Source: a virus | Direction: 5' to 3' (one strand) | IMG/VR virus record: IMGVR_UViG_3300010354_000652 | Span: 1-24,021 of that record | Length of the DNA stretch: 24,021 nucleotides | In this document: piece after piece, positions 3,514 to 21,859 of the stretch | How the letters are laid out: each line of letters begins with the position of its first letter | Position numbering within the stretch: position 1 is the first letter of the stretch | The notes under the pieces: model-generated | Told to the model about the DNA's origin: nothing | The model's input: only the letters and a program-made list of their open reading frames with translations | Databases searched by the model: none | Program-made: the position numbers and the translations under genes

Positions 3514-3521
3514 CATGCTAG
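3514..3521 (-). promoter_or_regulatory. CTAGNATS motif, candidate promoter for the 187-aa gene and giant fibre
   Basis: Read on the minus strand this is CTAGCATG, 15 nt upstream of the GTG start (27 nt from the alternative ATG). It overlaps the integrase stop codon. TAGCAT resembles a -10 hexamer; I see no conserved -35. One of six sites of this kind. Confidence 0.4.
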
Positions 3522-4690
3522 CTGGGGCGTTCGAGGTACAGATCAACAGGATCCTCAGGGCTCAGCCAGTTCCGGTAGGCCGTGTGATGCGAGGCGACCG
3601 TATGCCCCATGAACACCGAGGCATGGGCATCGGTGACCCGGTGCCGCGGCGAATGAAGCCGCTGAGCGTAGGCGTGCCGAAATCCGTAGGCGGTCGGACC
3701 GTCTTCGGCGACCAGCTTCAGGGCCCGCAGGCGGCGGTTGACGCGAACCCCGGCTCGCGACAGGTCTGACAGGGCTGGCAGTGGGGCAAGCCAGAGATCC
3801 GTGACGCCGAACTTCTCGTGCCACTCCGGGTGGAACGGTGGCACCCGTCGTGGACGTGTTTCGCCCTGGCGATTGGTTTTCCCTTTCCCCACCCAGGCGC
3901 AGTCTGGGCGCTTCTGACAGGGCTCGGCAATCCAGGCCTCCCATGGGCGGAGTCCGTAGACGGCAAGCAGGGTCACGACTCGCCGCCAGGGGCGACTCAG
4001 CGGGGAGTCCGGGGCGAGGAACGCCTCGATCTCCTGGTCGGAGAAACAGGGCTGCGGGCGAACGCGCGGCACGCGGCCGCTGCCCGCCAACGGCTCGAAG
4101 AGGGCCGTGTTCCACTGGACACCGCAAAGTGCGCAGACCCGCCTCAGCACCGCAATGGTGCGGCGACGGGACTCGGACCGCGGCCGAGTCAGCTCAATGG
4201 CACGGAAGATCGAGTCCTCGCTCAGGGGCCTGCTGGGATCCAGGCGCCGCAGGTAGGTCATGTGGTTCTCGACGAAGGTCTTCTCGGTGACCCCCTCGGC
4301 CAGCTTCAGGCGTTTCCACTTGGAAACCACCACTTCCAGTGTCAGCCTGGGTTCTTGCGGCTTGCCCTTTTTTACCCTCGACACGCTGCAGGCGTCTCTC
4401 CAGGCCTCGGCATCGAAGACCCAACCCCTGTCCAGGAGGAAGGCACGAAGCTCGAGGCCGCGGTTCTGCACGTCCATCGGCGCACTGTCGAAGTCCAGGA
4501 ACAGCGGCGCTTTCAGGCCGCTCAGCTGGACGTAGAGCTTCCGGCCGATCGCCCTCAGCCGAAACCCTCGACCGAAGACAGTGCCGCTCTTGGCGACGAG
4601 CAGCTGGACGGTCAGAGCGATGACGTCCTGCTCGGCCACAGAGGGTAAACTTACCCTTTTTTGTCCCCTTTTGGCCTCAGTTGCCTCCAT
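3518..4690 (-). CDS. int: Tyrosine-recombinase integrase
   Basis: This 390-aa site-specific recombinase would integrate or excise phage DNA. The C-terminal catalytic domain shows Arg I at R248 (YGLRPWE), a Lys-rich strand (K269/K271 in VGKGKT), box II as YGFRHAYAQR (R338, with Tyr replacing the usual His at 335), the MGH motif (H363) and the nucleophile Y372 in TAYRNW. This box II form and the MGHTVA...TAYRNW end are typical of integrases from cyanobacteria and their phages. Residues 110-200 are probably the core-binding domain. The N-terminal 100 residues resemble an arm-binding or AP2-like region (KLYVQLSGLKAPLFLDF). No att site can be assigned without the host chromosome. Unusually, the gene lies among tail-fibre genes. 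The ATG at 4690 has no strong Shine-Dalgarno sequence. Confidence 0.93.
   Translation of the reverse strand: MEATEAKRGQKRVSLPSVAEQDVIALTVQLLVAKSGTVFGRGFRLRAIGRKLYVQLSGLKAPLFLDFDSAPMDVQNRGLELRAFLLDRGWVFDAEAWRDACSVSRVKKGKPQEPRLTLEVVVSKWKRLKLAEGVTEKTFVENHMTYLRRLDPSRPLSEDSIFRAIELTRPRSESRRRTIAVLRRVCALCGVQWNTALFEPLAGSGRVPRVRPQPCFSDQEIEAFLAPDSPLSRPWRRVVTLLAVYGLRPWEAWIAEPCQKRPDCAWVGKGKTNRQGETRPRRVPPFHPEWHEKFGVTDLWLAPLPALSDLSRAGVRVNRRLRALKLVAEDGPTAYGFRHAYAQRLHSPRHRVTDAHASVFMGHTVASHHTAYRNWLSPEDPVDLYLERPS
4641..4662 (+). terminator. Possible plus-strand intrinsic terminator inside the integrase 5' end
   Basis: GGGTAA (4643-4648) pairs with TTACCC (4651-4656). One A-T pair and a G-U pair extend the stem, and a run of six T follows. 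In plus orientation this has the shape of a short rho-independent terminator. It lies inside the integrase reading frame, so it could limit antisense transcription, act as an operator, or be coincidental. Confidence 0.35.
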
Positions 4691-4790
4691 TTGCCGAGTG
4701 ACGCAGGAGCCAGGACATTAGTCCAGTCAAGGGATCCCAAGGGGTCCCAGCGAAAAGCCCCTACCAGGGAGCACCTCCTGGAGGAGGAGG
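4691..4790. other. Integrase upstream intergenic region
   Basis: About 100 bases between the BPSL0761-like gene and the integrase start hold no ORF I can support. A small palindrome (GGAC-ATTA-GTCC) lies near 4713-4724 and repeated CCTCC/GGAGG tracts lie near 4775-4790. This is the natural place to look for attP or an integrase operator, but neither can be identified from the sequence alone. Confidence 0.3.
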
Positions 4791-5069
4791 TTACTCCTGG
4801 CGAAAAACGTGCTCCAGCACTGGATCTCGCGACTCGAAAATCGCCTTACCCTGGGCCTTACCCTGGCGCTGCAGATGTGCTGAACCCTCCAGAACCGGGC
4901 GCAGGCGCTCTGGTCTGGGGAACCAGCGCAGCAGGGCACGGGCCTCGGCCCTGATCTCTCTGGGGATCCGTGGCGTCAGGCGATGGTCACTCAATCGATG
5001 TAGCAGCACGCGGGCCTGCAGGACGGCGGCGACTTCCTGGACGTTGGTCTCGTAGGGCGTCGGCTCCAT
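4791..5069 (-). CDS. BPSL0761-like small protein, 92 aa
   Basis: The protein starts with MEPTPYETNVQEVAAVLQAR and continues with LLHRLS...PREIRAEARALLRWFP. This pattern (an E/Q-x-R-A-V-L-Q-x-R helix, then xVRxxARxLLRHYP) is that of the BPSL0761 family, small helical proteins of unknown function found in bacteria and prophages. The C-terminus contains a short internal repeat (QGKAQGKA). I chose the ATG at 5069 because it gives the family N-terminus; the frame extends further upstream but would overlap the 150-aa gene in another frame. It lies 10 nt after that gene and before the integrase, so the three probably share a transcript. Confidence 0.75.
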   Translation of the reverse strand: MEPTPYETNVQEVAAVLQARVLLHRLSDHRLTPRIPREIRAEARALLRWFPRPERLRPVLEGSAHLQRQGKAQGKAIFESRDPVLEHVFRQE

Positions 5070-5079
5070 CGACCTGTCC

Positions 5080-5532
5080 TCAGGCCGACAGTGTGAGGGC
5101 CTCAAAGGGATCAGGTCCCTCGCCGATCGGCTCGGCGGCGCGCAGCTCGCGGAAGTAGCGGGCCCGGCAGGCGGCCTCGAGGCCTTCGAGCCGAGTGATC
5201 TCGCGTCGCAGGGCGACGGCTTCGGCGCCGTACTCCAGGCCGCGGTCGCGGGCGCACTGGCGCAGATGCACCACGTCAAGGCGAGTGGCGAGCGTTGCTG
5301 GCTTCGGCACCGGTTCCGGCTGCTCGGCCTCCGGCTGCAACCCCAGGCCGGTATAGGTGCAGCAAAGGGGGTGTGTGGGGTCCTGGCGCCCGTCCTCGGC
5401 GAAGAGGCGCTCCATGGTCTCCACCCGCGCGCTTGCCTCCGCCAGGTCAAGCGCTACCTGGCCGTCCGGCTCGACGGCGACCGGGAACAAGCCCGGGATA
5501 GTCAACTGGGTACACGAACGGTCACCAGGCAC
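5080..5532 (-). CDS. Hypothetical protein, 150 aa, integrase module
   Basis: No named family is recognised. The frame shows consistent coding character and a GTG start at 5532. The N-terminal third contains a helix (VALDLAEASARVETMERLFAE) followed by DGRQDPTHPLCCTYTGL. The centre is Pro/Glu-rich, and the C-terminal half is charged and helical (LRREITRLEGLEAACRARYFRELR), likely coiled coil. It is the first gene of the integrase-side operon and is divergent from the zinc-ribbon gene across a short intergenic region. A regulatory or DNA-metabolism role is possible but unsupported. Confidence 0.7.
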   Translation of the reverse strand: MPGDRSCTQLTIPGLFPVAVEPDGQVALDLAEASARVETMERLFAEDGRQDPTHPLCCTYTGLGLQPEAEQPEPVPKPATLATRLDVVHLRQCARDRGLEYGAEAVALRREITRLEGLEAACRARYFRELRAAEPIGEGPDPFEALTLSA

Positions 5533-5581
5533 GGGAGCGAGGCAGGTCTCGGCACGCTATCGCCGTGTCATGCGGTCTGCC

Positions 5582-5601
5582 AGCCTGGGCTGACACTCAG
5601 T
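5582..5601 (+). repeat. 20-nt shared element, copy 1 (before the zinc-ribbon gene)
   Basis: AGCCTGGGCTGACACTCAGT matches the minus-strand element at 9607-9626 with one mismatch in 20. Both copies point toward a gene starting just downstream. Here a GGGCT/AGCCC inverted repeat (5587-5607) surrounds a CACT-C-AGTG core, so it could be an operator or a hairpin near the translation start. Confidence 0.45.
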
Positions 5602-5611
5602 GAGCCCGGCG

Positions 5612-5857
5612 ATGCGCTGTCCCGTCTGCAGTTCGACGGACTTCACCTGCGTCCTGAATACCGTCCACCGTGAGGACAGTTCCGTGCGCCGCCGCCGTGG
5701 GTGCCGTCGCTGCCAGGTCCGCTGGACCACCATCGAGTCCTACGAGCCAGGCACGCTGATCAAGGCCTTTGTGCCGAGGCCTGTCGTCGGGGTCGACAAT
5801 GCGGCCCCTGGGGACAGCAGGGACGTGACGATCGCGAGCCCGGGGAGCGAGCCGTGA
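5612..5857 (+). CDS. NrdR-like zinc-ribbon protein, 81 aa
   Basis: The protein starts MRCPVCSSTDF and continues with VRRRRGCRRCQVRWTTIE. Two CxxC pairs (C3/C6 and C31/C34) around an Arg-rich RRRR stretch closely match the N-terminal zinc ribbon of NrdR, the repressor of ribonucleotide reductase genes. The ATP-cone that follows in cellular NrdR (about 150 aa) is missing. The last 35 residues are low-complexity. Phages often carry such short zinc-ribbon regulators, so DNA binding is likely while nucleotide sensing is not. I chose the ATG at 5612; an in-frame GTG at 5600 would add four residues. It is the only plus-strand gene in the left half, divergent from the 150-aa gene and convergent with the 56-aa gene. 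Confidence 0.75.
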   Translation: MRCPVCSSTDFTCVLNTVHREDSSVRRRRGCRRCQVRWTTIESYEPGTLIKAFVPRPVVGVDNAAPGDSRDVTIASPGSEP

Positions 5858-5903
5858 ACGGTGCTGCGGCTGCACGCACCCCGAAGGCACTGCAGATAGC
5901 CGC

Positions 5904-6074
5904 TCACTCGGAGGCGGTTTCTGCGACCTCGCCCGGGAGGGGGATCGACTTCCGCCTGGCCCACTCGATCAGCTCGCTGTAGGGAACAGCCCCAGTGCGC
6001 GGGTCCTTTTGAAGCTCTTCGTCCGGGTAGTAGACGATTCCGTGTTCTAACCGCGAAAAGAGGATGTAAGACAT
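5904..6074 (-). CDS. Small hypothetical protein, 56 aa
   Basis: This short frame begins with an ATG five bases after the tail-fibre stop. It encodes MSYILFSRLEHGIVYYPDEE, then VPYSELIEWARRKSIPLPGE, ending ETASE. The composition is protein-like, with an aromatic/hydrophobic N-terminal strand and a helix, and it is arranged like a translationally linked downstream partner. No family is recognised. By position it could be a fibre chaperone or an early gene of the integrase module. Overlapping frames on the other strand look like shadows of it. Confidence 0.65.
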   Translation of the reverse strand: MSYILFSRLEHGIVYYPDEELQKDPRTGAVPYSELIEWARRKSIPLPGEVAETASE

Positions 6075-6076
6075 GT

Positions 6077-7555
6077 TCAGAGAAGCGATGCGTCTGCATA
6101 ATAGGTGCCGGTAACGGAAGTATTCGGTTCTGTTGGCGACGTAGGTTGCGACAGCAGTAGTATGGTTACACCGTTTACGCCGACAAGTCCCCCATAGTAT
6201 GCAAGGCTATGGAGATTGAGGCTAGTGCCCACCGCGGTTTGAAAGTTGGGCACCCGTGCCAGTTCGGTAGAAAAGTAAACTGTTCCCCCGGCAATCTGGG
6301 AAGCCGGGCTATCGGACAGTGCGCGTGTTGCCGAGAATATCCCCGTCTGATAGTAGCGCTGACAGGACTGCAGCTCGTCTTCGAAGCCCCTGGGCTCAAG
6401 CGTTGTGGCGTTTGGCCCGGACTCGAACTGGGCGTCGGCAATCGTCCAGGAGGTGCCAGCTGCCTGCGCGCCGACCGAAAACACGACTTCGATCCCTGTA
6501 TTAGCCGAAGCAGGAACACTGAACGTCGCCGCGTACCTGGTCAGCGTTGGTGTCACGGTAAACGAGCCCGACGCAAAGAGAGTGCGCTTGGGAGATGCAT
6601 TGGTCCCAAACTGCCCCTTGACGTCGGCTCGGTACACGGCCCAATTAACGGCACTCAGCGAGGAGTTCGCAAGGCGGACGCTGAGTGTGGCCACGGAACC
6701 TGCCAGTGCAACGCAGTTGCGACCCTCGATTCGCTGGCCAAAGTTAATCGCGGTGACTCCGCTGCCTCCGGTGAACTCATACTGATACTTTCCGCTTCCC
6801 AGCTCCTTGATCTGTCGACCGGTGACCGTTCCGCCAGTTGGGTATCCGTACCAACAATCAATGGAATAATTCTGTACTGACGACGGAAAGCTCTGGACAT
6901 TGCTCGACCAGACCCTGTATTCCCCGCCTGCTGTTCCGGTCAGATCAATTGCCGTGCCACCGGAGGTTGCTGAAACCTTGAACGCCGTTACAGTCAAGCC
7001 GCTGCTGATCACGTAGTAATCCGTGTCCGGGACCAGAGGGCTTGGGAGTGCCCCATCAGTAGCAAAGAATCTGACACGATCTGCAGCCGCTAAGCCATGC
7101 CCCGCAGTCGGTGGGTCTAACGTGAAGGTACCTGTTGATACGTTAATCAGCAGTTCTGCTTCTAGTTTCGTGGCACCAAGGAGGCGCTGGTTGACCGCCA
7201 TGTTGCCGTTCAGGAGCCAGTTCTTACGCTTCAGGTACCTGGCGTCCGGGTTCTTCGGGACGAAATTGAGCCAGATCCACTTCCCGGCAGCACTGGAGTA
7301 ACGAAGACGAACTATCAGCTCGTTGCTGCCAATAAAGCCAGCCGGCACGCCCTGGATGATCAGCAATGACTCAATGCCAGTGCTGTCGAAAATCTCGATC
7401 AGGTCTCCATTGTTCGGATTGTTCGGAATTAAAAATATCGTATCAATAGGTCGATAGACCCATCCCGTCGTTTCGTTAAGAGAGAGAAAGTTGTCATCAA
7501 CCTCCTTAAAGGTCAGCGGTTCGCCCTTGGCGGCCCGGGTCGTGATAGCTGCCAA
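6077..7555 (-). CDS. Tail fibre protein with carbohydrate-binding-like domain
   Basis: Residues 1-27 (AITTRAAKGEPLTFKEVDDNF) match the common N-terminal attachment motif of phage tail fibres. Residues 136-218 carry the GHGL...YYVISSGLTVTAFKVS module that also occurs in the giant fibre at the left end. Residues 270-390 look like a jelly-roll carbohydrate-binding domain (NCVALAGSVATLSVRLANSS...). A typical fibre C-terminal segment follows (ELQSCQRYYQTG). The likely role is host-surface recognition. The start is a TTG at 7555, supported by an upstream GGAGGG. Base composition is visibly lower in GC than the neighbours, especially for residues 30-70, consistent with horizontal exchange. Two stem-loops lie immediately upstream. 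Confidence 0.85.
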   Translation of the reverse strand: MAAITTRAAKGEPLTFKEVDDNFLSLNETTGWVYRPIDTIFLIPNNPNNGDLIEIFDSTGIESLLIIQGVPAGFIGSNELIVRLRYSSAAGKWIWLNFVPKNPDARYLKRKNWLLNGNMAVNQRLLGATKLEAELLINVSTGTFTLDPPTAGHGLAAADRVRFFATDGALPSPLVPDTDYYVISSGLTVTAFKVSATSGGTAIDLTGTAGGEYRVWSSNVQSFPSSVQNYSIDCWYGYPTGGTVTGRQIKELGSGKYQYEFTGGSGVTAINFGQRIEGRNCVALAGSVATLSVRLANSSLSAVNWAVYRADVKGQFGTNASPKRTLFASGSFTVTPTLTRYAATFSVPASANTGIEVVFSVGAQAAGTSWTIADAQFESGPNATTLEPRGFEDELQSCQRYYQTGIFSATRALSDSPASQIAGGTVYFSTELARVPNFQTAVGTSLNLHSLAYYGGLVGVNGVTILLLSQPTSPTEPNTSVTGTYYADASLL

Positions 7556-7571
7556 GACCTGCCCTCCCTCT

Positions 7572-7600
7572 GAGCTTGTGGGTTCATGTACCCGTAGCTC
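7572..7600 (-). other. Stem-loop in the tail-fibre leader
   Basis: Arms GAGCT/AGCTC enclose a second stem GGGT/ACCC around a six-base loop. It lies in the intergenic leader of the fibre gene, with no U-tract after it, so it is not a classical terminator. Confidence 0.4.
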
Positions 7601-7601
7601 C

Positions 7602-7623
7602 GAGTCTAACGACAGTTCGACTC
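7602..7623 (-). other. Second stem-loop in the tail-fibre leader
   Basis: GAGTC/GACTC arms flank an inner AAC/GTT stem with a four-base loop. It abuts the neighbouring hairpin, giving a continuously structured leader of about 50 nt. Parts resemble tRNA arms, but no complete tRNA fold exists. Confidence 0.4.
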
Positions 7624-7634
7624 CCTGCTCTGCG

Positions 7635-11595: not shown

Positions 11596-12081
11596 CTACC
11601 TCCAGTGTGTGGACCCGGTCAGAGTCGCCACGCGTGTTCCCACCGAGGTGTCGGCTGGGCCGGGAACCGCCATGATGAACTCGGCGCCACTTCGCTCAAA
11701 GGCGTAGCGACGGACGTCCTCCCGCCGGTAGTTGGGGACGTACAGGGTCTCGGCAAGTCTATCGACCTCACGCAGGTAGATCTCCCGGTAGATCCGATCC
11801 GACTGCTCGGGGCTCGACTGGTAGATCGCTCGTTCGGTGTCGCCGACGATTCGCTCAACGCGGCTCGGCATGGGCACGCTCTCGTCACGCAACACCTCGG
11901 AGATCCTCCAGGCGCGATCACAGCGGTCCAGGTGCTCCGTGATGCGCGCATAGAAGTACGCATCCGGCACCCGCGCCATGGCCTCCTCCAGGCGTGCCAG
12001 GTCGCCCGCAGGAACCTGGGCACCACTGTTGAAGCCAAGGTGAAACCGGCAGCGAGACTTGTCGTAGGTGCTGAGCTCCAC
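11596..12081 (-). CDS. Putative head-tail connector-region protein, 161 aa
   Basis: A charged, mainly helical protein starting MELSTYDKSRCRFHLGFNSG, with a long middle helix (DLARLEEAMARVPDAYFYARITEHLDRCDRAW) and a second region (DRIYREIYLREVDRLAETLYVPNYRRED). Phage proteins with a FHLGY-like N-terminus and a helical body are common between capsid and tail genes; a neck or adaptor role is inferred from that context. The start is GTG at 12081. A CTAGAATC motif lies 24 nt upstream in the short gap after the helix-hairpin-helix gene. Confidence 0.7.
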   Translation of the reverse strand: MELSTYDKSRCRFHLGFNSGAQVPAGDLARLEEAMARVPDAYFYARITEHLDRCDRAWRISEVLRDESVPMPSRVERIVGDTERAIYQSSPEQSDRIYREIYLREVDRLAETLYVPNYRREDVRRYAFERSGAEFIMAVPGPADTSVGTRVATLTGSTHWR

Positions 12082-12104
12082 GCTGCCGGAGGCTGGCCTT
12101 CCCT

Positions 12105-12112
12105 GATTCTAG
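12105..12112 (-). promoter_or_regulatory. CTAGNATS motif, candidate promoter for the 161-aa gene
   Basis: CTAGAATC on the minus strand, preceded by TTC, the same 11 bases as the plus-strand site at 15940-15950. TAGAAT differs from the -10 consensus at one position. Start codon 24 nt downstream. Confidence 0.45.
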
Positions 12113-12119: not shown

Positions 12120-12551
12120 TCAGGCGACGTAGATCAGGTCAGCCTTGATCACTTCGTCCCAGTCGACGCGGCCAACCTGTCGTACCTGGTCGAGCGTCGC
12201 AAAGCGCTCGCCAGGCAGGCTCATCCGGAGCTCGAGGATTCTCTTGGCAGTCGAGTAGCCAACGCCCTTGATCCGGTCGGCGATAGCCTCGGCGCTGGCC
12301 ATGTTCAGGTTCAGCCGGGTGTCCGGGGGGATTGCCTGGGGTGGGACCACGTCCGGGTCCACGTCGTCTTTCTTCATTGGCGCAACCGGCTGCTGACCCG
12401 TGCGACCCCTGCCAGGCTCGTAGGCGTGCAGCTCGGCGAGGGCGACGTAGTTGACAGCACCGGTCTGGGTTTTGACCATCGCGTAGTCCTTGTCGTGGTA
12501 GCTGATCAGCTCCACGATTTGACCCGTCTTCTGGTTCTGGAAAAGGCTCAT
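12120..12551 (-). CDS. Helix-hairpin-helix (ComEA-like) protein, 143 aa
   Basis: The C-terminal half carries two helix-hairpin-helix units: residues 79-109 (RLNLNMASAEAIADRIKGVG...AKRILELR) and 117-135 (FATLDQVRQVGRVDWDEVI). This is the ComEA/competence-type fold that binds DNA without sequence specificity. The N-terminal 45 residues form a small beta-rich domain (FQNQKTGQIVELISYHDKDYAMVKT), and a Pro/Asp linker joins the two. I chose ATG 12551 over the longer frame because the extra residues run through the intergenic hairpin. Its place after the capsid genes suggests binding packaged DNA or a connector role. Confidence 0.8.
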   Translation of the reverse strand: MSLFQNQKTGQIVELISYHDKDYAMVKTQTGAVNYVALAELHAYEPGRGRTGQQPVAPMKKDDVDPDVVPPQAIPPDTRLNLNMASAEAIADRIKGVGYSTAKRILELRMSLPGERFATLDQVRQVGRVDWDEVIKADLIYVA

Positions 12552-12591
12552 ACGTTTCGCTCGATCGGAAGCCGCGAGTCCTGCAAGCTCC

Positions 12592-12599
12592 GATCCTAG
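12592..12599 (-). promoter_or_regulatory. CTAGNATS motif, candidate promoter for the helix-hairpin-helix gene
   Basis: CTAGGATC on the minus strand, 40 nt before the gene start, directly at the base of the long hairpin. This is what one would expect of a promoter placed after a transcription barrier. Confidence 0.4.
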
Positions 12600-13349: not shown

Positions 13350-14495
13350 TCAGTAAACGAATGAGTAGGCGACCGTCACGAAATCCTTGTTGAGGATCTC
13401 GAAGCCGGCAAAGAGTGACCAGATCATGATGATAAAACGACTGAAGTCGTCGTTATTGTTCAGCAGGATCTGAGCGTTCTCGCCGCCAATGCCGACGCCG
13501 ATCGCCTGCATGCCGAAGAACAGCAGCGGGGCGGCCTCGTAGGTGGCAGCACTCGCGTTGCCGCTGACCGGAATGGTCGCGGTGAAAGACTTCTCGGGCA
13601 GGTTGGTCGACTCGAAGAAGCGCACTCCCTCGAAGACAAACCCTGTGGGCATGACCGGCTGGCCTGCCACGAAGCCCGCTTGGCCGTATGCAGGGCCCAT
13701 GCCCATGTAGAAGTTGGCGTTCGGAGCCATGAATGGCTGACTGGGATCGACCATCCCGGAGCCGGGGTAGCGGGCGATCTCGCGGAAGTCGCTGTCCTGG
13801 CGCATGTGCTTCATCGCCGTGGGATCGAGGATCGCTCGATAGTTCCCATCGGGGAAGGTGGGCACGTTGCGCTTGCGCAGCTTCTCCACCACGTCGAGGA
13901 GGTCGTCCTTGACGCCGAACTTGGCCGACTGGTTGGCCGCGTAGGCAGCCACCGTGGTGCTGTTGGTCTTGGCCTTGCCTTTGGGGAAGAAGTAGCCGCC
14001 CTGGGTGGAGTCGGACTGACCGTTGGCCTCCGCCTTGAAGAGCTCGTCGGCGAACACCCGGTCGCGCCACCGGCGGTAGTCGTCCAGGAGGGTCAGCGAG
14101 CCAATGCTCTGGTGAAACACCGGCAGGGACCCGGTATCCAGCAGCATGCGCTGCGCGGTGATCAGGGTTTCGCGGGCCACCTTGAAGGTGCTCGCCTGGC
14201 TGGGGTTCTGGGGATCCGCAGGGCCCGTGTACTCCTTGAGGGTTACGGGAACCTTCTCCTTGACGATATTCCGAGAGGAGCTGGTGCCGATCGTTTGATC
14301 AGCAGTCCGCTCGCGGGAATCCTTGGTTCCAGGATTGCCCCAGTAGCGGTAGCGGTCAAGCTGAACGGTCTGTCCCGGCTGGGCACCAAAATCGTGGACC
14401 ACAACGGGGTCCACGGCCATCTCGATGACGTAGGCGGGGTGAGGCCGGTAAAGCTCGGCGCCCAGCACCTTCGGGAAATCATTGTCGACAAACAT
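13350..14495 (-). CDS. Major capsid protein
   Basis: This 381-aa protein has the hallmarks of an HK97-fold coat protein of the P22/N4-gp56-like type. The N-terminal part resembles FPKVLGAELYRPHPAYVIEM and GQTVQLDRYRYWG. A central helix-rich region follows (LLDDYRRWRDRVFADELFKAE). The diagnostic segment is YRAILDPTAMKHMRQDSDFR / EIARYPG, then the hydrophobic C-terminal domain. It would self-assemble into the procapsid with the scaffold-like protein. I chose ATG 14495; the frame extends to 14591, but those residues run into the divergent intergenic region and do not look like coat protein. No strong ribosome-binding site is visible, so the true start should be checked. Confidence 0.88.
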   Translation of the reverse strand: MFVDNDFPKVLGAELYRPHPAYVIEMAVDPVVVHDFGAQPGQTVQLDRYRYWGNPGTKDSRERTADQTIGTSSSRNIVKEKVPVTLKEYTGPADPQNPSQASTFKVARETLITAQRMLLDTGSLPVFHQSIGSLTLLDDYRRWRDRVFADELFKAEANGQSDSTQGGYFFPKGKAKTNSTTVAAYAANQSAKFGVKDDLLDVVEKLRKRNVPTFPDGNYRAILDPTAMKHMRQDSDFREIARYPGSGMVDPSQPFMAPNANFYMGMGPAYGQAGFVAGQPVMPTGFVFEGVRFFESTNLPEKSFTATIPVSGNASAATYEAAPLLFFGMQAIGVGIGGENAQILLNNNDDFSRFIIMIWSLFAGFEILNKDFVTVAYSFVY

Positions 14496-14579
14496 GGGAA
14501 GAAATGTTCCGAACGATGGGGGATAGAAGCGCGCAGCGTGCGTACCGTGGCATACGCTAGTGACAGCCTGGTGGCAAAA
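14496..14579. promoter_or_regulatory. Divergent intergenic region between capsid and LAGLIDADG genes
   Basis: These 84 bases separate the minus-strand capsid gene from the plus-strand LAGLIDADG gene and so should hold promoters for both. On the minus strand, TTGCCA is followed after 17 bases by TATGCC, a weak sigma70-like pair. A GCGTA/TACGC inverted repeat (14540-14557) overlaps it and could be an operator. CTAGCGTA here is a near variant of the CTAGNATS motif. Confidence 0.4.
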
Positions 14580-15206
14580 ATGAACACACAAGGCGTACGC
14601 GAGTTGCTCGGCGTTCTACTCGCGGACGGGAACCTGGGGCGTCGCCGCACGTCAACCCACATGCGAATCGTCGCAGCGATGCACGGCGGGGAGGACGAGC
14701 TTGACTTCCTGGAAGAGAAGGCGGACGAAGTTCGTCGCTGGGTTCCGACCAAGGCTCGGGTCGCTCCATACAGCACGCCACGGCGCGAGTCCGGCAACAG
14801 CACCGCCGTACTGCGCTTTCGCTTCACGTCGGAGATCCTCCTCCCGATCTACAACCTGCTCTACCCGAGCGGCGAGCGAGAGATCACCAGGCCGGCGCTG
14901 GAGCTCCTGGGCGGCAGAGCCGCGGCCTGGCTGTGGGCCGAGGGTGCTCGCCCGCTGGACCAGGGGAACGGATTCTTGCTGCGTCGCGTCGGCCGACTGG
15001 AAGATGAAGCTCGCCTGGTGAGCGGATGGCTCGAGGTGTTGAGTGGCGCCGGGTCCGCGGTCGTTTTTCCACGGGCCGCCCAGGGCGGGAGTCGGGGGCT
15101 ACCGCAGCTCTGGTTTCAGTCGTCGGAAGTTCAACGGCTTCAGGAGACGTTGGCGCCCTATGCCCCTAGGTCCCGTGCAGCGCTTTTCCAGGGCGAGTCA
15201 CAATGA
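14580..15206 (+). CDS. LAGLIDADG-type homing endonuclease-like protein, 208 aa
   Basis: The N-terminus carries a clear LAGLIDADG motif (residues 9-17, LLGVLLADG, catalytic D16). The second copy lies at residues 114-122 (AAAWLWAEG), with E121 in place of the usual Asp. Between them the family pattern is intact: FTSEILLPIYNLLYPSGERE leads to the second motif. Near the end, YAPRSRAAL aligns with the family's PYIxPSMRYKL segment. Such enzymes cut long asymmetric DNA sites and often lie free-standing near essential phage genes, here divergent from the capsid gene. I chose ATG 14580 (weak GGTGG site); in-frame GTGs at 14571 and 14547 are possible. The next gene overlaps by four bases. Confidence 0.78.
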   Translation: MNTQGVRELLGVLLADGNLGRRRTSTHMRIVAAMHGGEDELDFLEEKADEVRRWVPTKARVAPYSTPRRESGNSTAVLRFRFTSEILLPIYNLLYPSGEREITRPALELLGGRAAAWLWAEGARPLDQGNGFLLRRVGRLEDEARLVSGWLEVLSGAGSAVVFPRAAQGGSRGLPQLWFQSSEVQRLQETLAPYAPRSRAALFQGESQ

Positions 15207-15886: not shown

Positions 15887-15896
15887 GGCAACCGAT

Positions 15897-15925: not shown

Positions 15926-15942
15926 CGCCTGGTGCTCGATTC

Positions 15943-15950
15943 CTAGAATC
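15943..15950 (+). promoter_or_regulatory. CTAGNATS motif, candidate promoter for the 285-aa gene
   Basis: CTAGAATC on the plus strand, 49 nt before the GTG start. It is the only plus-strand member of the set, and it precedes a plus-strand gene. It shares TTCCTAGAATC with the minus-strand site at 12105-12112. Confidence 0.45.
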
Positions 15951-15999
15951 CCGATCGACAGCTGCACCGCGCCGGCGGCGTCGATCATCGGGGACTGCC

Positions 16000-16857
16000 G
16001 TGGACCAATCCAGCGTCGAGGTCGAGGTCGTCCGCTTCTACGGCGGTAGCGACGCCACGACCCCAAGCTTCAATCGAACTCGTTATGTGTACCACTTCTC
16101 GGTACACGAGCCGTTCGACATCAGCAAGCTCCTCCAGGCCCAGTACAGCGCGACCCAGGTCCGTGATGCGTTGCCACCGCGGGGGCCGCTGCGCGCCGTA
16201 CTCAGCGGCCTGATCGGCGCCGAGCGAGGGACGCAGACCCTGTTCTTCGGTTTCAGCATTGCGTCTCCGGCCAGGATTGGCTTGCTGCTGGTCCGGCAGA
16301 ATCGCTACGAAGACCAGTACATCTCCGTCTCGCTTCACAATGACGACGGACCAATCCCGCTCGGGATCGACGGTTTTGCGCGTTCATCGCTCGAATACCC
16401 AATCGAGTTCGAGGAGATCACGCCAATCAGTGTCGAACTTGGATACGTGAAGTGCGGATACTGGCAAACCGGCTACGCGATTGGAGACTGCGTATTCTTT
16501 GACACGAAATTCATCGAGGAGGACGCGTATGGAGATCTTGACTACAAGTTTGACTCCCCCTATGGCGCCATCCTGCCTGCCGGCAAGTACGGCTTCACGG
16601 TCTCCAGCTCACAGTGGCCAAAGCTCCCCTACAAGCTGATCCTGGCCATCATTCCGCCCGGGGAGCTTTCCGCCGTTCTTGAGTGTCGCGCCGATCCCCA
16701 AGGTCGCGTCGGCTTTGCCCCCCTGTCTGCGGTCCTAGAGATGAGATCCAGTCCGTCCGGTGTCATCCCAGGCCGAAGGGCGGAAGCCTCCGGCGCGATC
16801 GAAATGGCAGCAGCGCCGACGGCGACCATCGAACGAGTCTCACCGTACGGCTCCTGA
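16000..16857 (+). CDS. Hypothetical virion-like protein with C-terminal repeats, 285 aa
   Basis: No named family is recognised. Residues 1-220 look like a folded beta-rich domain (RYVYHFSVHEPFDISKLLQA, TLFFGFSIASPARIGLLLVR, ILPAGKYGFTVSSSQWPKLP). Residues 223-279 hold three degenerate units of about 19 residues (LSAVLECRADPQG, LSAVLEMRSSPSG, ASGAIEMAAAPTA). The start is GTG 16000. It lies in the plus-strand island between the LAGLIDADG pair and a small tail protein, 35 bases from the latter, so a tail or fibre-tip role is inferred. GC content is somewhat lower than in the flanking genes, especially for residues 20-180. Confidence 0.7.
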   Translation: MDQSSVEVEVVRFYGGSDATTPSFNRTRYVYHFSVHEPFDISKLLQAQYSATQVRDALPPRGPLRAVLSGLIGAERGTQTLFFGFSIASPARIGLLLVRQNRYEDQYISVSLHNDDGPIPLGIDGFARSSLEYPIEFEEITPISVELGYVKCGYWQTGYAIGDCVFFDTKFIEEDAYGDLDYKFDSPYGAILPAGKYGFTVSSSQWPKLPYKLILAIIPPGELSAVLECRADPQGRVGFAPLSAVLEMRSSPSGVIPGRRAEASGAIEMAAAPTATIERVSPYGS

Positions 16858-16892
16858 CGGCTTGCCAGAATGAGCAAAACGCAAGACCAGGC

Positions 16893-17336
16893 ATGCCCTA
16901 TTCCCAGTACCTGGCGACGAGGATCCTGAACTGGCATCGTGGCGTCGCCAACGGTGTCGCTGGTTCCAACCCAGGCATGCCCGCGGCTCCCTCCACGATC
17001 TACATCAGCGTGCATAGTGCCGATCCAGGGCCTCTTGGCACCGCCAACGACGTGACCAACATCGTCGCGACGGCCCGGGGGTCGATCCCTGCTGCCAACT
17101 GGAGCGTGCCGACCGAGGCGCCCCCGCCGGCCACGGGCTTCCAGATGAGCAACACCGCTGCGGTGACAATCTCCGGGTCTGCCCCGGGAACGGCGACGGT
17201 GTCCTACTTCGGCTGCTGGGACGCCGCCGTGGGTGGCAACTTCCTGGAGTACGGCCCCCTGGCCAACCCCTTGACGATCGCGGTCGGTGACATCGTGCGG
17301 TTTTCGACAGGGCAGCTGGTGCTGCGCAAGGTCTGA
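16893..17336 (+). CDS. Small phage tail fibre-like protein, 147 aa
   Basis: The sequence follows a widespread siphophage family. It starts PYSQYLATRILNWHRG, then a strand with IYISVHSADPGPLGTANDV, a NWSVPTEAPPPATGFQMSNT segment, and a C-terminal block with ATVSYFGCWDAAVGGNFLEYG and VGDIVRFSTGQLVLRKV. The pattern 'L(Y/H)TADPxxxG...FGIFDAxxGGNLLxxGxL...GDxxxFxxGxLxI' is characteristic. These proteins are thought to be tail-tip or fibre components. I chose ATG 16893 because it gives the family N-terminus; the longer frame runs over the 285-aa gene. Its stop is two bases from the convergent stop of the L,D-transpeptidase gene, leaving no room for a separate terminator. Confidence 0.82.
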   Translation: MPYSQYLATRILNWHRGVANGVAGSNPGMPAAPSTIYISVHSADPGPLGTANDVTNIVATARGSIPAANWSVPTEAPPPATGFQMSNTAAVTISGSAPGTATVSYFGCWDAAVGGNFLEYGPLANPLTIAVGDIVRFSTGQLVLRKV

Positions 17337-17338
17337 CC

Positions 17339-18097
17339 TCAGCGCTCTTGAAAGACCCCGACGTAGACCGTCCCCTTGCGGCAGAGGGGCAGGATCTTGT
17401 CGCGCAGGTCGATGTTGTGAACCCTGATGCAGCCGAGGGTCGGATGCAGTGCCTGGTGCGGCGCCCAGGCCCCGGGCCAGCCGCAGGCGCTGCCACCGCC
17501 GTGGATCATGATCCCATCCCGAAGGGGCTTGCTGTGGGGTCCCTCCTGCCCCTCGAGCCCCTCCAGGTCGAAGCTATACCAGCCATAGGCCCGGCGATCT
17601 GGAGTGAAGTTCGCCGCGGGGTCCTTCTCGTAGTCCCTGTGGATGCCGCTCGGATTGATCCTGTACAGGCCCGGCGGAGTGTCACCACCTCGGGTCTTCC
17701 AGTCCGTGTCACTGCCCTGGCCGCGGGCTAGGCAGGGGATCTTCCAGAGCAATCTTCCTGTATGGTCGTAAGCCTCCATGTCCCGGTCACGATCGTTGAC
17801 CAGCAGGTAGGAGTCACCGGGCTGCACCGGTGCGGGGATCCCGGGACCAGCCATGCCAGCCTCTTCCGAGCCACGCGGATCAAGCCCCTTCCTCGGGGGC
17901 GAAGCGCTCGACGACAGCAGTGGAGCCTTGGTCTCGACCGCGGCCTTCCACAGGTCTCGGAGCTCGCCGCCCTCGTCGAGGGCCCTGGGGTCAAGCTGCA
18001 GCAGTCGATCGAGTACCGCCTGCAGCCAGGCCCGGTGATGCGACTTCGAGGGATCGAAGTAGGTCGCGTAGTTGGTGATCGAAGTCACGTTCGTCAA
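17339..18097 (-). CDS. YkuD-type L,D-transpeptidase, 252 aa
   Basis: The catalytic signature is clear: IMIHGGG with H199, and HPTLGCIRVHN with nucleophile C223 and R225. The YkuD domain spans about residues 95-250 (SYLLVNDRDRDMEAYDHTGR... to the end), with the typical PPGLYRI and YGWYSFDLEG strands. Cellular enzymes of this family form 3-3 or lipoprotein cross-links in peptidoglycan. In a phage the enzyme could remodel or cleave the wall during lysis or entry. The N-terminal 90 residues form a helical region and a Ser/Pro linker; there is no signal peptide, so export would need a holin or virion delivery. The start is TTG at 18097, overlapping the upstream stop (TTGA); a GTG at 18088 is an alternative. 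Confidence 0.88.
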   Translation of the reverse strand: MTNVTSITNYATYFDPSKSHHRAWLQAVLDRLLQLDPRALDEGGELRDLWKAAVETKAPLLSSSASPPRKGLDPRGSEEAGMAGPGIPAPVQPGDSYLLVNDRDRDMEAYDHTGRLLWKIPCLARGQGSDTDWKTRGGDTPPGLYRINPSGIHRDYEKDPAANFTPDRRAYGWYSFDLEGLEGQEGPHSKPLRDGIMIHGGGSACGWPGAWAPHQALHPTLGCIRVHNIDLRDKILPLCRKGTVYVGVFQER

Positions 18098-18336
18098 ACG
18101 CCCTCGTGGCCCTGTTCTAGGGATTCCACGGCCAGATGCTGAGCCGCTTCGTCGTCGAAGCCCTGGCTGCGCAGCGAGCGGTAGACCTCGTCGAAGCGTG
18201 CAATGCTCGTCTCCATGCCCTCTCCATGAGTCAGCACCTCGGCGGCCATGTGAGCAGCAGCAGGGCGGGGAACGTCGTCGCTGGTGAAGTGCTTGGCCAG
18301 CGCTCGGTAAACCTCAGGACTGGCTGCCAGGCGCAT
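18094..18336 (-). CDS. Hypothetical helical protein, 80 aa
   Basis: A small, mostly helical acidic protein starting MRLAASPEVYRALAKHFTSD, with internal helices (AAAHMAAEVLTHGE, EVYRSLRSQGFDDEAAQHLAVESL). No family is recognised. The ATG is at 18336, and its stop is overlapped by the TTG start of the L,D-transpeptidase gene, so the two are probably translated together. A functional link to the wall enzyme is possible but based only on coupling. A CTAGCATG motif lies 21 nt upstream. Confidence 0.7.
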   Translation of the reverse strand: MRLAASPEVYRALAKHFTSDDVPRPAAAHMAAEVLTHGEGMETSIARFDEVYRSLRSQGFDDEAAQHLAVESLEQGHEGV

Positions 18337-18357
18337 GACGGCTCTTGGGTGTCAATT

Positions 18358-18365
18358 CATGCTAG
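18358..18365 (-). promoter_or_regulatory. CTAGNATS motif, candidate promoter for the 80-aa and transpeptidase genes
   Basis: CTAGCATG on the minus strand, identical to the site at 3514-3521, in the 38-base gap after the 106-aa gene. Start codon 21 nt downstream. Confidence 0.45.
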
Positions 18366-18374
18366 ACGGGGCGG

Positions 18375-18695
18375 TCACCAGGACCAGTGACAGCTCCAGT
18401 AGCCTGGGGTCAGCTTGTCGGTCTTCTCGTCACAGTTGTGGCGCTTGTGGAAGTCGTCGCGTCGAACCTTGTCCCCATGCCCGCCTCGTCCGCCCGGGCC
18501 ATTGCGGTAGTGCTCCATTGATGGATCCCCGAAGCGCACGATCTGGATCCGATCGGTCTTGGGGTTCCGAACGGCGACGGCGAACTTCTTGCTGGCCCCC
18601 GGGGTGCGCTTGGGTTGCTCCAGCCCCTTGAACCTCTCGCCGGCAACCTCGATGTAGCGCTGAGCCTTCTCCCGCGCGCCGGCACGATCAGCCAC
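18375..18695 (-). CDS. Conserved phage protein with FGDP / RHNCD / YWSC motifs, 106 aa
   Basis: The core pattern is KKFAVAVRN...IQIVRFGDPSME (residues 36-61), then a Gly-rich loop, RRDDFHKRHNCDEKTDK (78-94) and YWSCHW (99-104). I know this combination from small uncharacterised proteins encoded near portal and capsid genes in many large phages. The role is unknown. The two conserved Cys (C88, C102) and nearby His could bind metal, which is inference. The start is GTG at 18695, three bases after the stop of the 43-aa gene. An assembly or prohead role is suggested only by location. Confidence 0.8.
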   Translation of the reverse strand: MADRAGAREKAQRYIEVAGERFKGLEQPKRTPGASKKFAVAVRNPKTDRIQIVRFGDPSMEHYRNGPGGRGGHGDKVRRDDFHKRHNCDEKTDKLTPGYWSCHWSW

Positions 18696-18698
18696 GGA

Positions 18699-18830
18699 TC
18701 ACTTCCCCTGACCGACCGATTTCTTGCGGCCGTGACTGGGTCGCGACCGAGTTCCGTTACCTTGGCGGGTTTTCTTGGGGGTGCGCTCGATCGGTTGCTT
18801 CCCCCCGGCCAGCGAGCGCTTCGTCTTCAT
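18699..18830 (-). CDS. Small very basic protein, 43 aa
   Basis: It starts MKTKRSLAGGKQPIERTPKK, continues with TRQGNGTRSRPSHGRKK and ends SVGQGK. About a third of the residues are Lys or Arg. Short basic proteins with a P-K-K-T-R-Q-G-x-G core and a GQGK end occur in cyanophage and other marine phage structural clusters, which supports a real gene despite its size. The ATG overlaps the upstream stop (ATGA), also supporting translation. The charge suggests DNA or RNA binding, or a scaffold contact inside the procapsid; the function is unknown. Confidence 0.72.
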   Translation of the reverse strand: MKTKRSLAGGKQPIERTPKKTRQGNGTRSRPSHGRKKSVGQGK

Positions 18831-19126
18831 GTGGGGCCGCAGCAGAGGGTCCTCGCCCGTGCCAGGTGGCCGGTGAGCAGACCTTGCGCCTGGGCCTGCT
18901 GCGATGCGGCGTTGAACGCGGCTTGCTGTGCCCCGTACTGCAGAGTGCGCTGATCGGCCTGCGCGGCCTCGGCAGCGCGAGTAAAGCCTGCCGTGGCCTG
19001 ATTGCCGGCCGGGTCGCTCAGTGCGCCCGCCGCCGAGATGACCTGGTTCCCGCGGGATCTCACCTGGGCGAAGGACTGCCCTGTGGGGCCCTGGGCCATC
19101 AGGGCAGCGGGTTGTTGCATCATCAC
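18827..19126 (-). CDS. Hypothetical Ala/Gln-rich protein, 99 aa
   Basis: It starts MMMQQPAALMAQGPTGQSF and is dominated by Ala, Gln and Gly, with helices such as FTRAAEAAQADQRTLQYGAQ and FNAASQQAQAQGL. No family is recognised. The GTG at 19126 is followed at once by two in-frame ATGs (19123, 19120), and no ribosome-binding site distinguishes them. It follows the scaffold-like gene by four bases and overlaps the 43-aa gene by ATGA. A minor assembly or virion role is inferred from position. Confidence 0.65.
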   Translation of the reverse strand: MMMQQPAALMAQGPTGQSFAQVRSRGNQVISAAGALSDPAGNQATAGFTRAAEAAQADQRTLQYGAQQAAFNAASQQAQAQGLLTGHLARARTLCCGPT

Positions 19127-19130
19127 GGCG

Positions 19131-20108
19131 TCAGCTGTCGGAGATCAGGAGCTTGCTGCGCAGTGCGTCGGCCGGCGCCTGGGATAGCAGCTTCCAAAGC
19201 TGGTCGGGCTGGTAGTTCGCGGTTTGCTGGAACACGTTCCAGAAGTCGCTGTTGCCCGAGGGCTGATACCCGGGGGCGGGCATCTGCATCTGGGGGCGCT
19301 GGTATCCCGGCGTAGCGGCGGTCACGTCCGCCTGGAGTCGATCCAGGGGGGTCTCAACGGGGTAGGGGCCCTTCGGTCCGAAGAACTCGTTGACGTAGTC
19401 AGCCAGCAGGTCCGGGTTCGTGGTCAGCAGGTTGTAGGCCTGATTGTCCTCGAGCGTGGCGTTGAGCGCAGTCTCCAACTGGCGAAGGTTGCCATGGACC
19501 TGCTGCAGCTGTTGCAGGGCGTCAACGCTCTGCTGTGCCTGGGCAAGCAGCGCGTCCTCGACGGTGCAGGCATAGCGGTTCAGCAGGGCGGGGGCCTCGG
19601 CGCCGAAGTGCTGAAGAACCTCCAGTGACTCGTTACTGACGCCGTTCAGATACTGGTCGACCGGTCCTGCGGCCTGCAGGCTTGGCACGCTCGCTGCGGG
19701 CGGAGCGGCGCTTGGCCACGCGCTCGGATAGCTCGGCGAATACGCCGGCATTGCTTGGGGATAGGAGGTCGGCGTCGCCGAGCTGAGTACCGGCTGGTAG
19801 CTGGGTACTGCCGAAGGGTAGGGCGCCTGGTAGGCGGGAGCCGACGGGGTCGCGGGCCAGGAGGGCGCCTGGGGACGGTATTGGGGCGTCCCGCTCAAAC
19901 GGGCGGACAGGTTCTCGTACGCCGCCTGCCAGGGATCCGGAGCCGCCGGAGCCGCCTGCGGCTGGTAGCTGGGCTGCGTCGGGTACGAAGTCTGCGGCAT
20001 CGGTGCCTGGGGCATCGATGGGGAGACCGGCGCCGACACGGGCGCGCTGGATGGGATCGAGCTCTGCGGGCTCACCTGAACCTGCGGCATCGCCAAACTG
20101 TCCTGCAT
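19131..20108 (-). CDS. Scaffold-like protein, 325 aa, starting inside the portal frame
   Basis: The first 150 residues are extremely rich in Pro, Gln, Ser, Tyr and Ala (SYPTQPSYQPQ, APAYQAPYPSA), with one helical island (DPWQAAYENLSARLSG, about 58-73). Residues 155-235 form a helical domain (SLEVLQHFGAEAPALLNRYA, then QQSVDALQQLQQVHGNLRQLETAL), likely coiled coil. The C-terminus has NSDFWNVFQQTAN. Disordered plus helical architecture between portal and capsid fits a procapsid scaffold. ATG 20108 has a good GGGAG site seven bases upstream, and the frame has very GC-rich third positions, so the start looks real although it lies 476 nt inside the portal frame. Confidence 0.75.
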   Translation of the reverse strand: MQDSLAMPQVQVSPQSSIPSSAPVSAPVSPSMPQAPMPQTSYPTQPSYQPQAAPAAPDPWQAAYENLSARLSGTPQYRPQAPSWPATPSAPAYQAPYPSAVPSYQPVLSSATPTSYPQAMPAYSPSYPSAWPSAAPPAASVPSLQAAGPVDQYLNGVSNESLEVLQHFGAEAPALLNRYACTVEDALLAQAQQSVDALQQLQQVHGNLRQLETALNATLEDNQAYNLLTTNPDLLADYVNEFFGPKGPYPVETPLDRLQADVTAATPGYQRPQMQMPAPGYQPSGNSDFWNVFQQTANYQPDQLWKLLSQAPADALRSKLLISDS

Positions 20109-21846
20109 AAGTCAGCTCCCGTTTAAGGAAATCGAAGGTCCGGTAAAGGAACGGCGTCAGGTCGAGGCGAGCGTCCGCGAGGAGCGGCAGGTTCGGCGCC
20201 TGCGGATGCGGCGTCTGCTGCATCGCTCCAATGAGGCCCAGGAACGTTGAGATGCTCTGCTGGGTAGCCTGGGCCAGCCTGAATGGGTACCCGTTCAGCA
20301 TAGCGCTCCGTTCCTCGTCGGTTTTGCTCGGGAAGAGGTAGCGCAGCGCCTCGATCGAGTTGACCCCCAGCTCCTGGAGGTTGCGGACCACGATCGAGTT
20401 GTTGAGGATGTCGTCGGTCGATTCCTCGAACACTGGCCCCCGCCAGCGCCACTCGACGCGACGGTCGCCATCTGGGATCAATCCGACCACGCCGGATGGC
20501 AGCTTCTGGGCCTCGATGGCCTTGTCGATGGCCGTCGCGACCTTTCCTTCAAAGGCCTCGAAGGCCTGCAGGAAGTCCTGTCGAGCCTTCTCGTAGGCCT
20601 CCCGATCCCCGTCCATCTCCTCGAGGATTGGCGGCTGCGGGACCTTGATCTTGGCGGCGATGGCAAAACTCTCCCGGAAGATCCGCTCCTCGTTGTGGAT
20701 CATCAGGGCCAGCAGCTTGCAAAGCCCGTAGGTCAGCAGGCCGCGGCACTTTCGTGAGGCGGTCGTTGCCGCCCGTCCGAAGAGGCTCTTGATCTCGTAG
20801 GCCGTGGCCCCGGAGCTGATCCCGAGCTCGTCGACCCCGCCCAGGGCCGTGCGAACTTCCTCGCGGTACTGCCTGGCGTAGAGGTTCTGGTCGCCGCTGA
20901 CGGCATTCGGGGTGATGTACTGGACACGGTCAGTCGCCTCCAGGTTGGCGATCAGGCGCGGGACTCGGACGCCGCCGTCGAGGGTCGGGGCCCCGGTAAC
21001 CGAGAACCGGCTGCTGGGGCGGTCAGCCGAGGAGAAGCCACTTCTGCTGCTGATCGTCGGGCGCTGCAGCGCACTGTCGCCTCCGGCCTCCACCAGGTCG
21101 TGCCGCGGGCGGCTGGAGACCAGTGTCGGATTGCCATAGAAGCGGATGTTCTCCCGGATGTTCTTGACCAGGCCGTCGTGCACCATGATGTGCCCCTCAT
21201 GGCCGGCGAAGTCCCCGGTGGCGTCCATGCCCGTGGCGCGCATCCAGTTGAACGCCTCGACAGCCGGGATGAACCCCAGGGAGTTGCGGGTCGTGCGCCG
21301 CTGAAGGCTGACCGCCGCCGGCGGCATCGGCGTGTCGAAGGACGGCTTTTCGCTCGAGATCGACTCGATCAGTTCGTCGCGGCGAACCCTCAGTCGCACG
21401 TACTTCTGGGCGACGCCCCCAGGCGCCAGGGCCCCGGTCGCACCGATCTCGGCGCGAGCCCGGTAGGAGTAGATCAGGTCAAGCTCCTCGAGCTGCTCGC
21501 TGGCGTCGTAGTAGGCGCGGTAGTTCTCCTTGGAGAACCACATGATTCGATAGGAGTCTCCGACCGGCCGAAAGAACCAGAGGCCGACCCCCTGGCAGAT
21601 GAAGTCATCGACAATGCCCTCGAGACGCTGATCGATCTCGTTCTCCTCGATGATCCGCTCGAGGAAGCTGCGCCGGAAGCCGTAGGTGTCCTGCCGGGGG
21701 TAGAACTCGACCCCCTGGCGAAGCATGAACATCCGCATCTGGGCCAGATGCCCGGACACGATCGTCGTATCAGCTGATGCGTCCGCACGACGCTCGCGCG
21801 CTGCTTCGACGATCTCGTTGAAGCGGTTCGGATCTTGGGTACGCAT
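19633..21846 (-). CDS. Portal protein
   Basis: This 737-aa protein would form the dodecameric ring at the unique capsid vertex through which DNA is packaged and ejected. The N-terminal part (RRSFLERIIEENEIDQRLEGIVDDFICQG) and core (LGGVDELGISSGATAYEIKSLFGRAAT) fit large phage portals of the cyanophage type. Residues 385-450 form a long helical region (HNEERIFRESFAIAAKIKV...KARQDFLQAFEAFEGK). The last 158 residues are Gly/Pro/Arg-rich and overlap the scaffold-like gene in another frame; AAGSGEPAELDPIQRARVG in this part still looks portal-like. It follows TerL with a 37-base gap containing CTAGGATG. ATG 21846. Confidence 0.88.
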   Translation of the reverse strand: MRTQDPNRFNEIVEAARERRADASADTTIVSGHLAQMRMFMLRQGVEFYPRQDTYGFRRSFLERIIEENEIDQRLEGIVDDFICQGVGLWFFRPVGDSYRIMWFSKENYRAYYDASEQLEELDLIYSYRARAEIGATGALAPGGVAQKYVRLRVRRDELIESISSEKPSFDTPMPPAAVSLQRRTTRNSLGFIPAVEAFNWMRATGMDATGDFAGHEGHIMVHDGLVKNIRENIRFYGNPTLVSSRPRHDLVEAGGDSALQRPTISSRSGFSSADRPSSRFSVTGAPTLDGGVRVPRLIANLEATDRVQYITPNAVSGDQNLYARQYREEVRTALGGVDELGISSGATAYEIKSLFGRAATTASRKCRGLLTYGLCKLLALMIHNEERIFRESFAIAAKIKVPQPPILEEMDGDREAYEKARQDFLQAFEAFEGKVATAIDKAIEAQKLPSGVVGLIPDGDRRVEWRWRGPVFEESTDDILNNSIVVRNLQELGVNSIEALRYLFPSKTDEERSAMLNGYPFRLAQATQQSISTFLGLIGAMQQTPHPQAPNLPLLADARLDLTPFLYRTFDFLKRELTYAGQFGDAAGSGEPAELDPIQRARVGAGLPIDAPGTDAADFVPDAAQLPAAGGSGGSGSLAGGVREPVRPFERDAPIPSPGALLARDPVGSRLPGALPFGSTQLPAGTQLGDADLLSPSNAGVFAELSERVAKRRSARSERAKPAGRRTGRPVSERRQ

Positions 21847-21851
21847 GACTG

Positions 21852-21859
21852 CATCCTAG
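21852..21859 (-). promoter_or_regulatory. CTAGNATS motif, immediately upstream of portal
   Basis: CTAGGATG on the minus strand, only five bases before the portal ATG. If TAGGAT were a -10 element, transcription would begin at or near the start codon, giving an almost leaderless mRNA. That makes this the least certain of the six as a promoter. Confidence 0.35.

Follow-up and report, generated by a model that had tools for sequence, protein, structure and literature searches.

The late promoters of phage T4 and of T4-like cyanophages share the consensus TATAAATA. The mechanism of late transcription in T4 involves gp55, gp33 and gp45 (PMC2988020). Ma-LMM01, a Microcystis phage of the T4-like lineage, has no gp55, and its late promoters resemble host SigA sites (PMC5780444). 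In phage phiEco32, the middle and late promoters carry tAATGTAtA and are read by the phage sigma factor gp36 (PMC8948821). Promoters of the cyanobacterium Synechococcus elongatus have a Ta-aaT -10 element, no -35 consensus and an A at +1 (PMC3219970). Here we analyse a 24,021-bp virus record, IMG/VR IMGVR_UViG_3300010354_000652 (the window, at its full length), a late-gene fragment related to cyanophage S-EIV1, and the short word CTAGNAT(C/G), or CTAGNATS, that stands ahead of several of its genes. S-EIV1-like phages are reportedly a widespread lineage, going by the title of the 2015 description by Chenard et al. In the literature searched, we found no promoter system described for them.

We consider it highly probable that the CTAGNATS sites are the -10 element of late promoters in the GC-rich S-EIV1-like clade, which would lack a -35 element, start transcription usually at an A and produce a leaderless portal mRNA. 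The first-pass annotation of the window had already likened TAGNAT to the -10 hexamer of a late promoter, and this reading is strongly supported by the position and orientation of the sites, their restriction to the late strand, their conservation between orthologues and the A at +1. From this sequence evidence we infer that the sites promote transcription and fire late.

CTAGNATS sites ahead of late genes

Both strands of the window were scanned, and exactly six matches were found. Distances here and below run from the end of the motif to the start codon.

3514..3521, minus strand: CTAGCATG site, predicted -10 (-13 to -6); predicted +1 at 3508 (T); 26 nt before the 183-aa gene start at 3487
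12105..12112, minus strand: CTAGAATC site, predicted -10; predicted +1 at 12099 (A); 23 nt before the 161-aa gene start at 12081
12592..12599, minus strand: CTAGGATC site, predicted -10; predicted +1 at 12586 (T); 40 nt before the 143-aa gene start at 12551
15943..15950, plus strand: CTAGAATC site, predicted -10; predicted +1 at 15956 (C); 49 nt before the plus-strand 285-aa gene start at 16000
18358..18365, minus strand: CTAGCATG site, predicted -10; predicted +1 at 18352 (A); 21 nt before the 80-aa gene start at 18336
21852..21859, minus strand: CTAGGATG site, predicted -10; predicted +1 at 21846, the A of the portal ATG; 5 nt before the start

These are the six sites that the first-pass annotation had reported, each facing a start codon on its own strand, the single plus-strand site included, and its remark that no CTAG inside a gene fits the pattern was borne out across the window. 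Its placement of all sites in intergenic gaps or at gene junctions holds overall, with two reservations: at 3514-3521 the motif shares bases with the TAG stop codon that ends the preceding integrase-like gene, and the intergenic place of the 12592-12599 site depends on a gene start at 12551, a start backed by 143-aa orthologues. The zone upstream of starts makes up 2.6% of the sequence on both strands, and the probability that six of six sites fall within it is about 3e-10. Alone, the count is modestly unusual: dinucleotide shuffles gave a mean of 2.06 sites and at least six in 3 of 100. CTAG itself is depleted in the window (15 observed, 49 in shuffles), and about 0.3 CTAGNATS per strand are expected given 15 CTAGs.

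Megablast of the window against annotated phages gave no nucleotide match, and relatives were reached by protein search. The large terminase of the window is 53% identical in amino acids to TerL of the freshwater Synechococcus phage S-EIV1, and its portal-like protein is 45% identical to the S-EIV1 counterpart; these homologies place the window among the S-EIV1-like cyanophages. Terminase identity to the window is 91% in viral contig G001, 89% in G002 and 89% in G003, and 63-72% in many others. Gene calls, benchmarked on the S-EIV1 annotation, agree for 56/62 stops and 47/56 starts. In six close contigs (the window, G001, G002, G003, G007 and G028; about 321 kb in total), 48 of the 52 CTAGNATS lie within the 46-nt zone before a same-strand start, where 0.1 are expected. 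Most single-substitution variants are far less enriched, with small exceptions (CTAGNCTS 8, GTAGNATS 3, TTAGNATS 2). In G002, the structural strand holds ten sites and the opposite strand one. The late strand encodes head, tail and terminase genes, and the early strand helicase, primase, SSB, ThyX (thymidylate synthase) and a kinase; 34/112 upstream regions carry the motif on the former, compared with 3/112 on the latter (Fisher p 1e-8), so that CTAGNATS appears nearly restricted to structural genes. By the criteria of the first-pass annotation, its reading would fall if the word were as frequent within genes or on the opposite strand, or if orthologous junctions did not conserve it; the relatives show neither.

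The window sites can be followed individually into orthologues. The 3514-3521 site recurs as identical CTAGCATG at a distance of 25 nt in G001, G002 and G003, and the 12105 site as CTAGAATC at 22-26 nt in G002, G003 and G007. The 12592 site is kept at 40 nt in G002 and G007, and its counterpart in G003 and L229 reads TTAGGATC; CTAGCATG of the 18358 site is present in 9/10 orthologues (at 21 or 44 nt). The 15943-15950 site is the least supported of the six; G003 carries CTAGGATC 78 nt ahead of its 285-aa orthologue. Out-of-sample contigs found through the 161-aa gene have CTAGNAT at 21-26 nt in L151, L153, L154, L166, L169, L170 and L178-L181, and close variants in L155, L165, L168 and L182. 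More distant contigs with this gene, in which genes are tightly packed, have no motif.

We then aligned 62 unique sites. No position near -35 is informative, in line with the first-pass annotation, which had seen no shared -35. The strongest signals outside the octamer are a pyrimidine at -3 (58/62 sites) and an A at +13 from the C, 7 nt past the T of TAGNAT (50/62), a position that was not used for selection. A sister group with looser YTAGNMT sites repeats both independently (A in 31/42, pyrimidine in 39/42). In the predicted register, the octamer would occupy -13 to -6, with the C at -13 and TAGNAT at -12 to -7, and transcription would start 7 nt past the last base of TAGNAT, as a rule at an A. 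With a TANNNT hexamer, an A 6-8 nt downstream and no -35, the sites look like -10 elements of the sigma-70 type in its cyanobacterial style. A search that presupposed no more than NTANNNTN6A returned 60 matches upstream of late-strand genes (2.8 expected) and 7 upstream of early-strand genes (3.5 expected). Among the 60 late matches, 48 have C at -13, 52 have G at -10, 56 have A or C at -8 and 55 have C or G at -6; T never occurs at -10. Across 72 orthologous site pairs, which are phylogenetically linked and thus not independent tests, identity is 38% in the flank, compared with 97% at S and 82% at +13, and N never differs (72/72).

The variants within the clade follow the gene: CTAGCATG belongs to the 80-aa, 183-aa and 97-aa genes, CTAGAATC to the 161-aa and 169-aa genes and CTAGGATG to the portal. 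Counted by family, N(-9) and S(-6) covary (A-C 10, C-G 7, G-G 5, G-C 2, C-C 1, A-G 0; p 1e-4), and this variation possibly reflects different strengths or timing.

At the portal, exact CTAGGATG stands 5 nt before the ATG in five phages (the window, G001, G002, G007 and G028), so that the predicted +1 falls on the A of the ATG, and the portal-like gene would be transcribed as a leaderless mRNA beginning at its own start codon. For most of 46 unique relatives, a TANNNT ends 6 nt before the portal ATG. Members of the GC-rich clade have an upstream gene that stops earlier, which leaves the portal -10 free of it.

Several observations weigh against the promoter assignment. An A at +13 is found in just 3/6 window sites, the exceptions being 3508 (T), 12586 (T) and 15956 (C). 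Many late-strand gaps have no CTAGNATS, including that of the capsid-like gene, which has CTAGCGT instead, and L146 and L147, new relatives found through the 80-aa gene, have no motif, with the start codon poorly located. Shared ancestry among the relatives makes the site counts look more independent than they are, and the labels early and late derive from gene content and strand. In phages outside the clade, the TAA of the portal element usually doubles as the stop codon of the upstream gene, which means that part of its conservation has another cause.

Factors that may read the sites

Across the wider family, the late-strand element changes with G+C content. Relatives of 41-46% G+C (G016, S-EIV1) carry TATAAT, TAAAAT and TAGAAT with an A at +1, those of 60% carry TAGAAT or TAGACT, and those of 63-67% carry CTAGNAT. 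The generic TANNNT-N6-A is the form of the wider family; in the GC-rich clade it is sharpened to CTAGNATS. Given this gradient and the -10-only promoters of cyanobacteria, host RNA polymerase acting at -10-only late promoters is the simplest reading. By analogy, we lean towards a cyanobacterial host polymerase with a sigma-70-family factor, with lateness supplied by a phage factor or arising when a block is lifted.

A highly diverged sigma-like protein encoded by the phage, comparable to T4 gp55 or phiEco32 gp36, might instead direct the host core to CTAGNATS; this is the main alternative, though a less likely one. In its favour, the clade consensus is much stricter than a generic cyanobacterial -10 (G(-10) in 52/60 and never T, C(-13) in 48/60), and the motif is confined to the late strand. 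phiEco32 gp36 likewise recognises promoters made of one element, from which transcription starts 6-8 bp further on (PMC8948821), and sigma factors are annotated in other Synechococcus siphophages; S-CBS2 and S-CBS3, which have such annotations, carry no CTAGNATS upstream of genes. However, Pfam searches of 12 relatives gave no match to sigma-70 region 2 at E<=1 and none to region 4 over the cut-off, although a divergent sigma of the gp55 type could escape such a search. The best conserved helix-turn-helix (HTH) protein folds like an XRE/Cro-CI regulator, with weak E-values, and AT-rich relatives show ordinary TATAAT, TAAAAT and TAGAAT, as for a normal sigma. The first-pass annotation had proposed a phage-specific or sigma-variant late promoter; the late, -10-like part of that proposal is strongly supported, whereas the phage-specific or sigma part finds no counterpart in these searches.

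It is also conceivable, if not what we would expect, that the sites are ordinary promoters of the host primary sigma with no dedicated late factor, their CTAG form arising from G+C pressure alone. The architecture, with a -10 only and an A at +1, is of the host type (PMC3219970), and the series from TATAAT/TAAAAT through TAGAAT/TAGACT to CTAGNAT tracks G+C. Yet the early strand of the same GC-rich genomes is nearly devoid of such -10s (7 against 3.5 expected), which indicates that the late class is selective, and the N base is fixed by locus. A more elaborate scheme, in which the bases at N(-9) and S(-6) act as a promoter code specific to each locus, giving two or three subclasses (CTAGAATC, CTAGCATG and CTAGGATG) that differ in strength or timing and are read by a dedicated sigma-like phage protein with an unrecognised fold, seems doubtful to us.

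An operator or other protein-binding site, such as a repressor site near late genes rather than a core promoter element, would suit a short conserved word, the XRE-type regulator conserved in relatives and the temperate ancestry suggested by the integrase-like gene. We judge it improbable, because the A at +1 at fixed spacing, the one-way orientation, the 5-nt minimum that is exactly leaderless and the likeness to TANNNT are hallmarks of promoters, and the site as a whole is not palindromic. A translation-related element or a by-product of gene junctions, in which a TAG stop precedes a start context, is largely refuted: the TAG at 3514 is indeed a stop codon, as is the portal TAA in many relatives, but distances to starts of 5-49 nt do not fit Shine-Dalgarno spacing, the majority of sites contain no stop codon and the +13 A would go unexplained. 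Chance selection by eye, which the weak raw count in the window would allow (3/100 shuffles reach six), is negligible in view of the relatives, the orthologous conservation and the unselected +13 A.

Individual proteins were also considered as regulators of the late genes. The conserved HTH protein was rejected as a late sigma on its weak XRE/Cro-CI-like resemblance. This 214-aa protein (L090:4616-5260, minus strand), the product of a late-strand gene that lies inside the early block, is a candidate repressor or activator. For the first early gene (A6), the predicted structure was mixed alpha/beta, of low confidence and unlike a sigma in appearance, and the gene of 163-169 aa at the early/late divergence was rejected as a late regulator, having a hydrophobic C-terminus and a virion-like character.

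Neighbouring genes and the early-strand motif

The window spans part of a structural block with terminase, portal-like, capsid-like, tail fibre and integrase-like genes. The principal genes referred to above are as follows.

21884..23428, minus strand: large terminase subunit (phrog_38), the query for finding relatives
19633..21846, minus strand: portal-like virion structural gene, 737 aa (phrog_20475, E 7e-173)
18094..18336, minus strand: 80-aa gene downstream of the 18358 site
16000..16857, plus strand: 285-aa gene downstream of the 15943 site
12120..12551, minus strand: 143-aa gene downstream of the 12592 site
11596..12081, minus strand: 161-aa gene downstream of the 12105 site (phrog_29158 in the G002 orthologue)
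2936..3487, minus strand: 183-aa gene downstream of the 3514 site

The 737-aa gene is called portal from its location after the terminase. The integrase-like gene (3518-4690, minus strand; phrog_1, E 6e-10) lies inside the late block, has orthologues in G001, G002 and G005, and raises the possibility of a temperate lifestyle for S-EIV1-like phages. The late block also holds an L,D-transpeptidase gene (YkuD, PF03734; 17339-18097, minus strand), perhaps with a role in lysis or wall remodelling. Opposite and upstream of the capsid-like gene (13350-14495) sits a LAGLIDADG-type homing endonuclease-like gene at about 14480-15206 (plus strand), missed by the gene caller and matching PF03161 below the cut-off (E 3.6e-4). 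The CTAGCGT of the capsid-like gene is located at 14554-14560 (minus strand), some 57 nt ahead of the gene, and the corresponding position holds CTAGCGTAAG or CTAGTGTAAG in G003 and G004; this element is possibly a variant late promoter without the +1 A.

The relative G002 is 84 kb long with a 123-bp end repeat and encodes NblA and a DUF3288 protein, which point to a cyanobacterial host. The short NblA-like protein (phycobilisome degradation) is encoded at L091:1919-2266 (minus strand); NblA was detected by Pfam, and the assignment was made by reading the protein sequence. A search for prophages and host genomes matched only short contigs in metagenome bins, with no usable prophage or host.

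Upstream of the early genes stands another, longer motif (TCAGCAGTGCACA; roughly TGAGCNCACTCAGCAGTGCACA), which has no -10 box and is unlike a sigma-70 promoter. It is common to G001, G002, G003, G005 and G028 and does not occur in the window. Several near-exact copies per contig cluster where the early block begins (L088:16754-16813 and L089:2211-2260 are examples), often directly after a terminator-like GGGGCTTTTT. At the divergence point, the early motif lies back to back with a late CTAGAATC site. One such divergent intergenic region, at L089:2183-2223 (G002 42183-42223), holds the early motif and a late CTAGAAT(C/G), and the pair is conserved across clades, with equivalents in G001, G003, G028, G010, G021 and G009.

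Comparison with known promoters

A base-exact late-promoter consensus with a predicted +1 would allow operon maps to be drawn from sequence alone. The consensus predicts leaderless portal mRNAs and separates late from early gene control, and with a few promoters it makes the choice of polymerase and sigma for phage late genes in picocyanobacteria testable.

The T4 late promoters resemble the sites described here in being a single 8-bp element, in the -13 to -6 register and in serving late genes. However, TATAAATA is not matched, no gp55-like domain was found in the 12 relatives searched, and the window phage is not T4-like. Ma-LMM01 offers a cyanophage precedent for late promoters of the host SigA type without gp55, although its promoters are bipartite (WTNNANN16-22TATTMT) and its lineage is different. 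With phiEco32, the sites share single-element phage promoters ahead of late genes, a start 6-8 bp downstream and the lack of a -35, but the word is a different one (CTAGNATS) and no sigma homologue was detected in the 12 relatives searched. The -10-only promoters of cyanobacteria (S. elongatus PCC 7942 and Prochlorococcus MED4; PMC3219970) have in common with them a single TANNNT -10, no -35 and an A at +1. Compared with the Ta-aaT consensus of the host, the phage C(-13)TAGNAT(C/G) is strict, confined to the late strand and fixed in its N for each gene.

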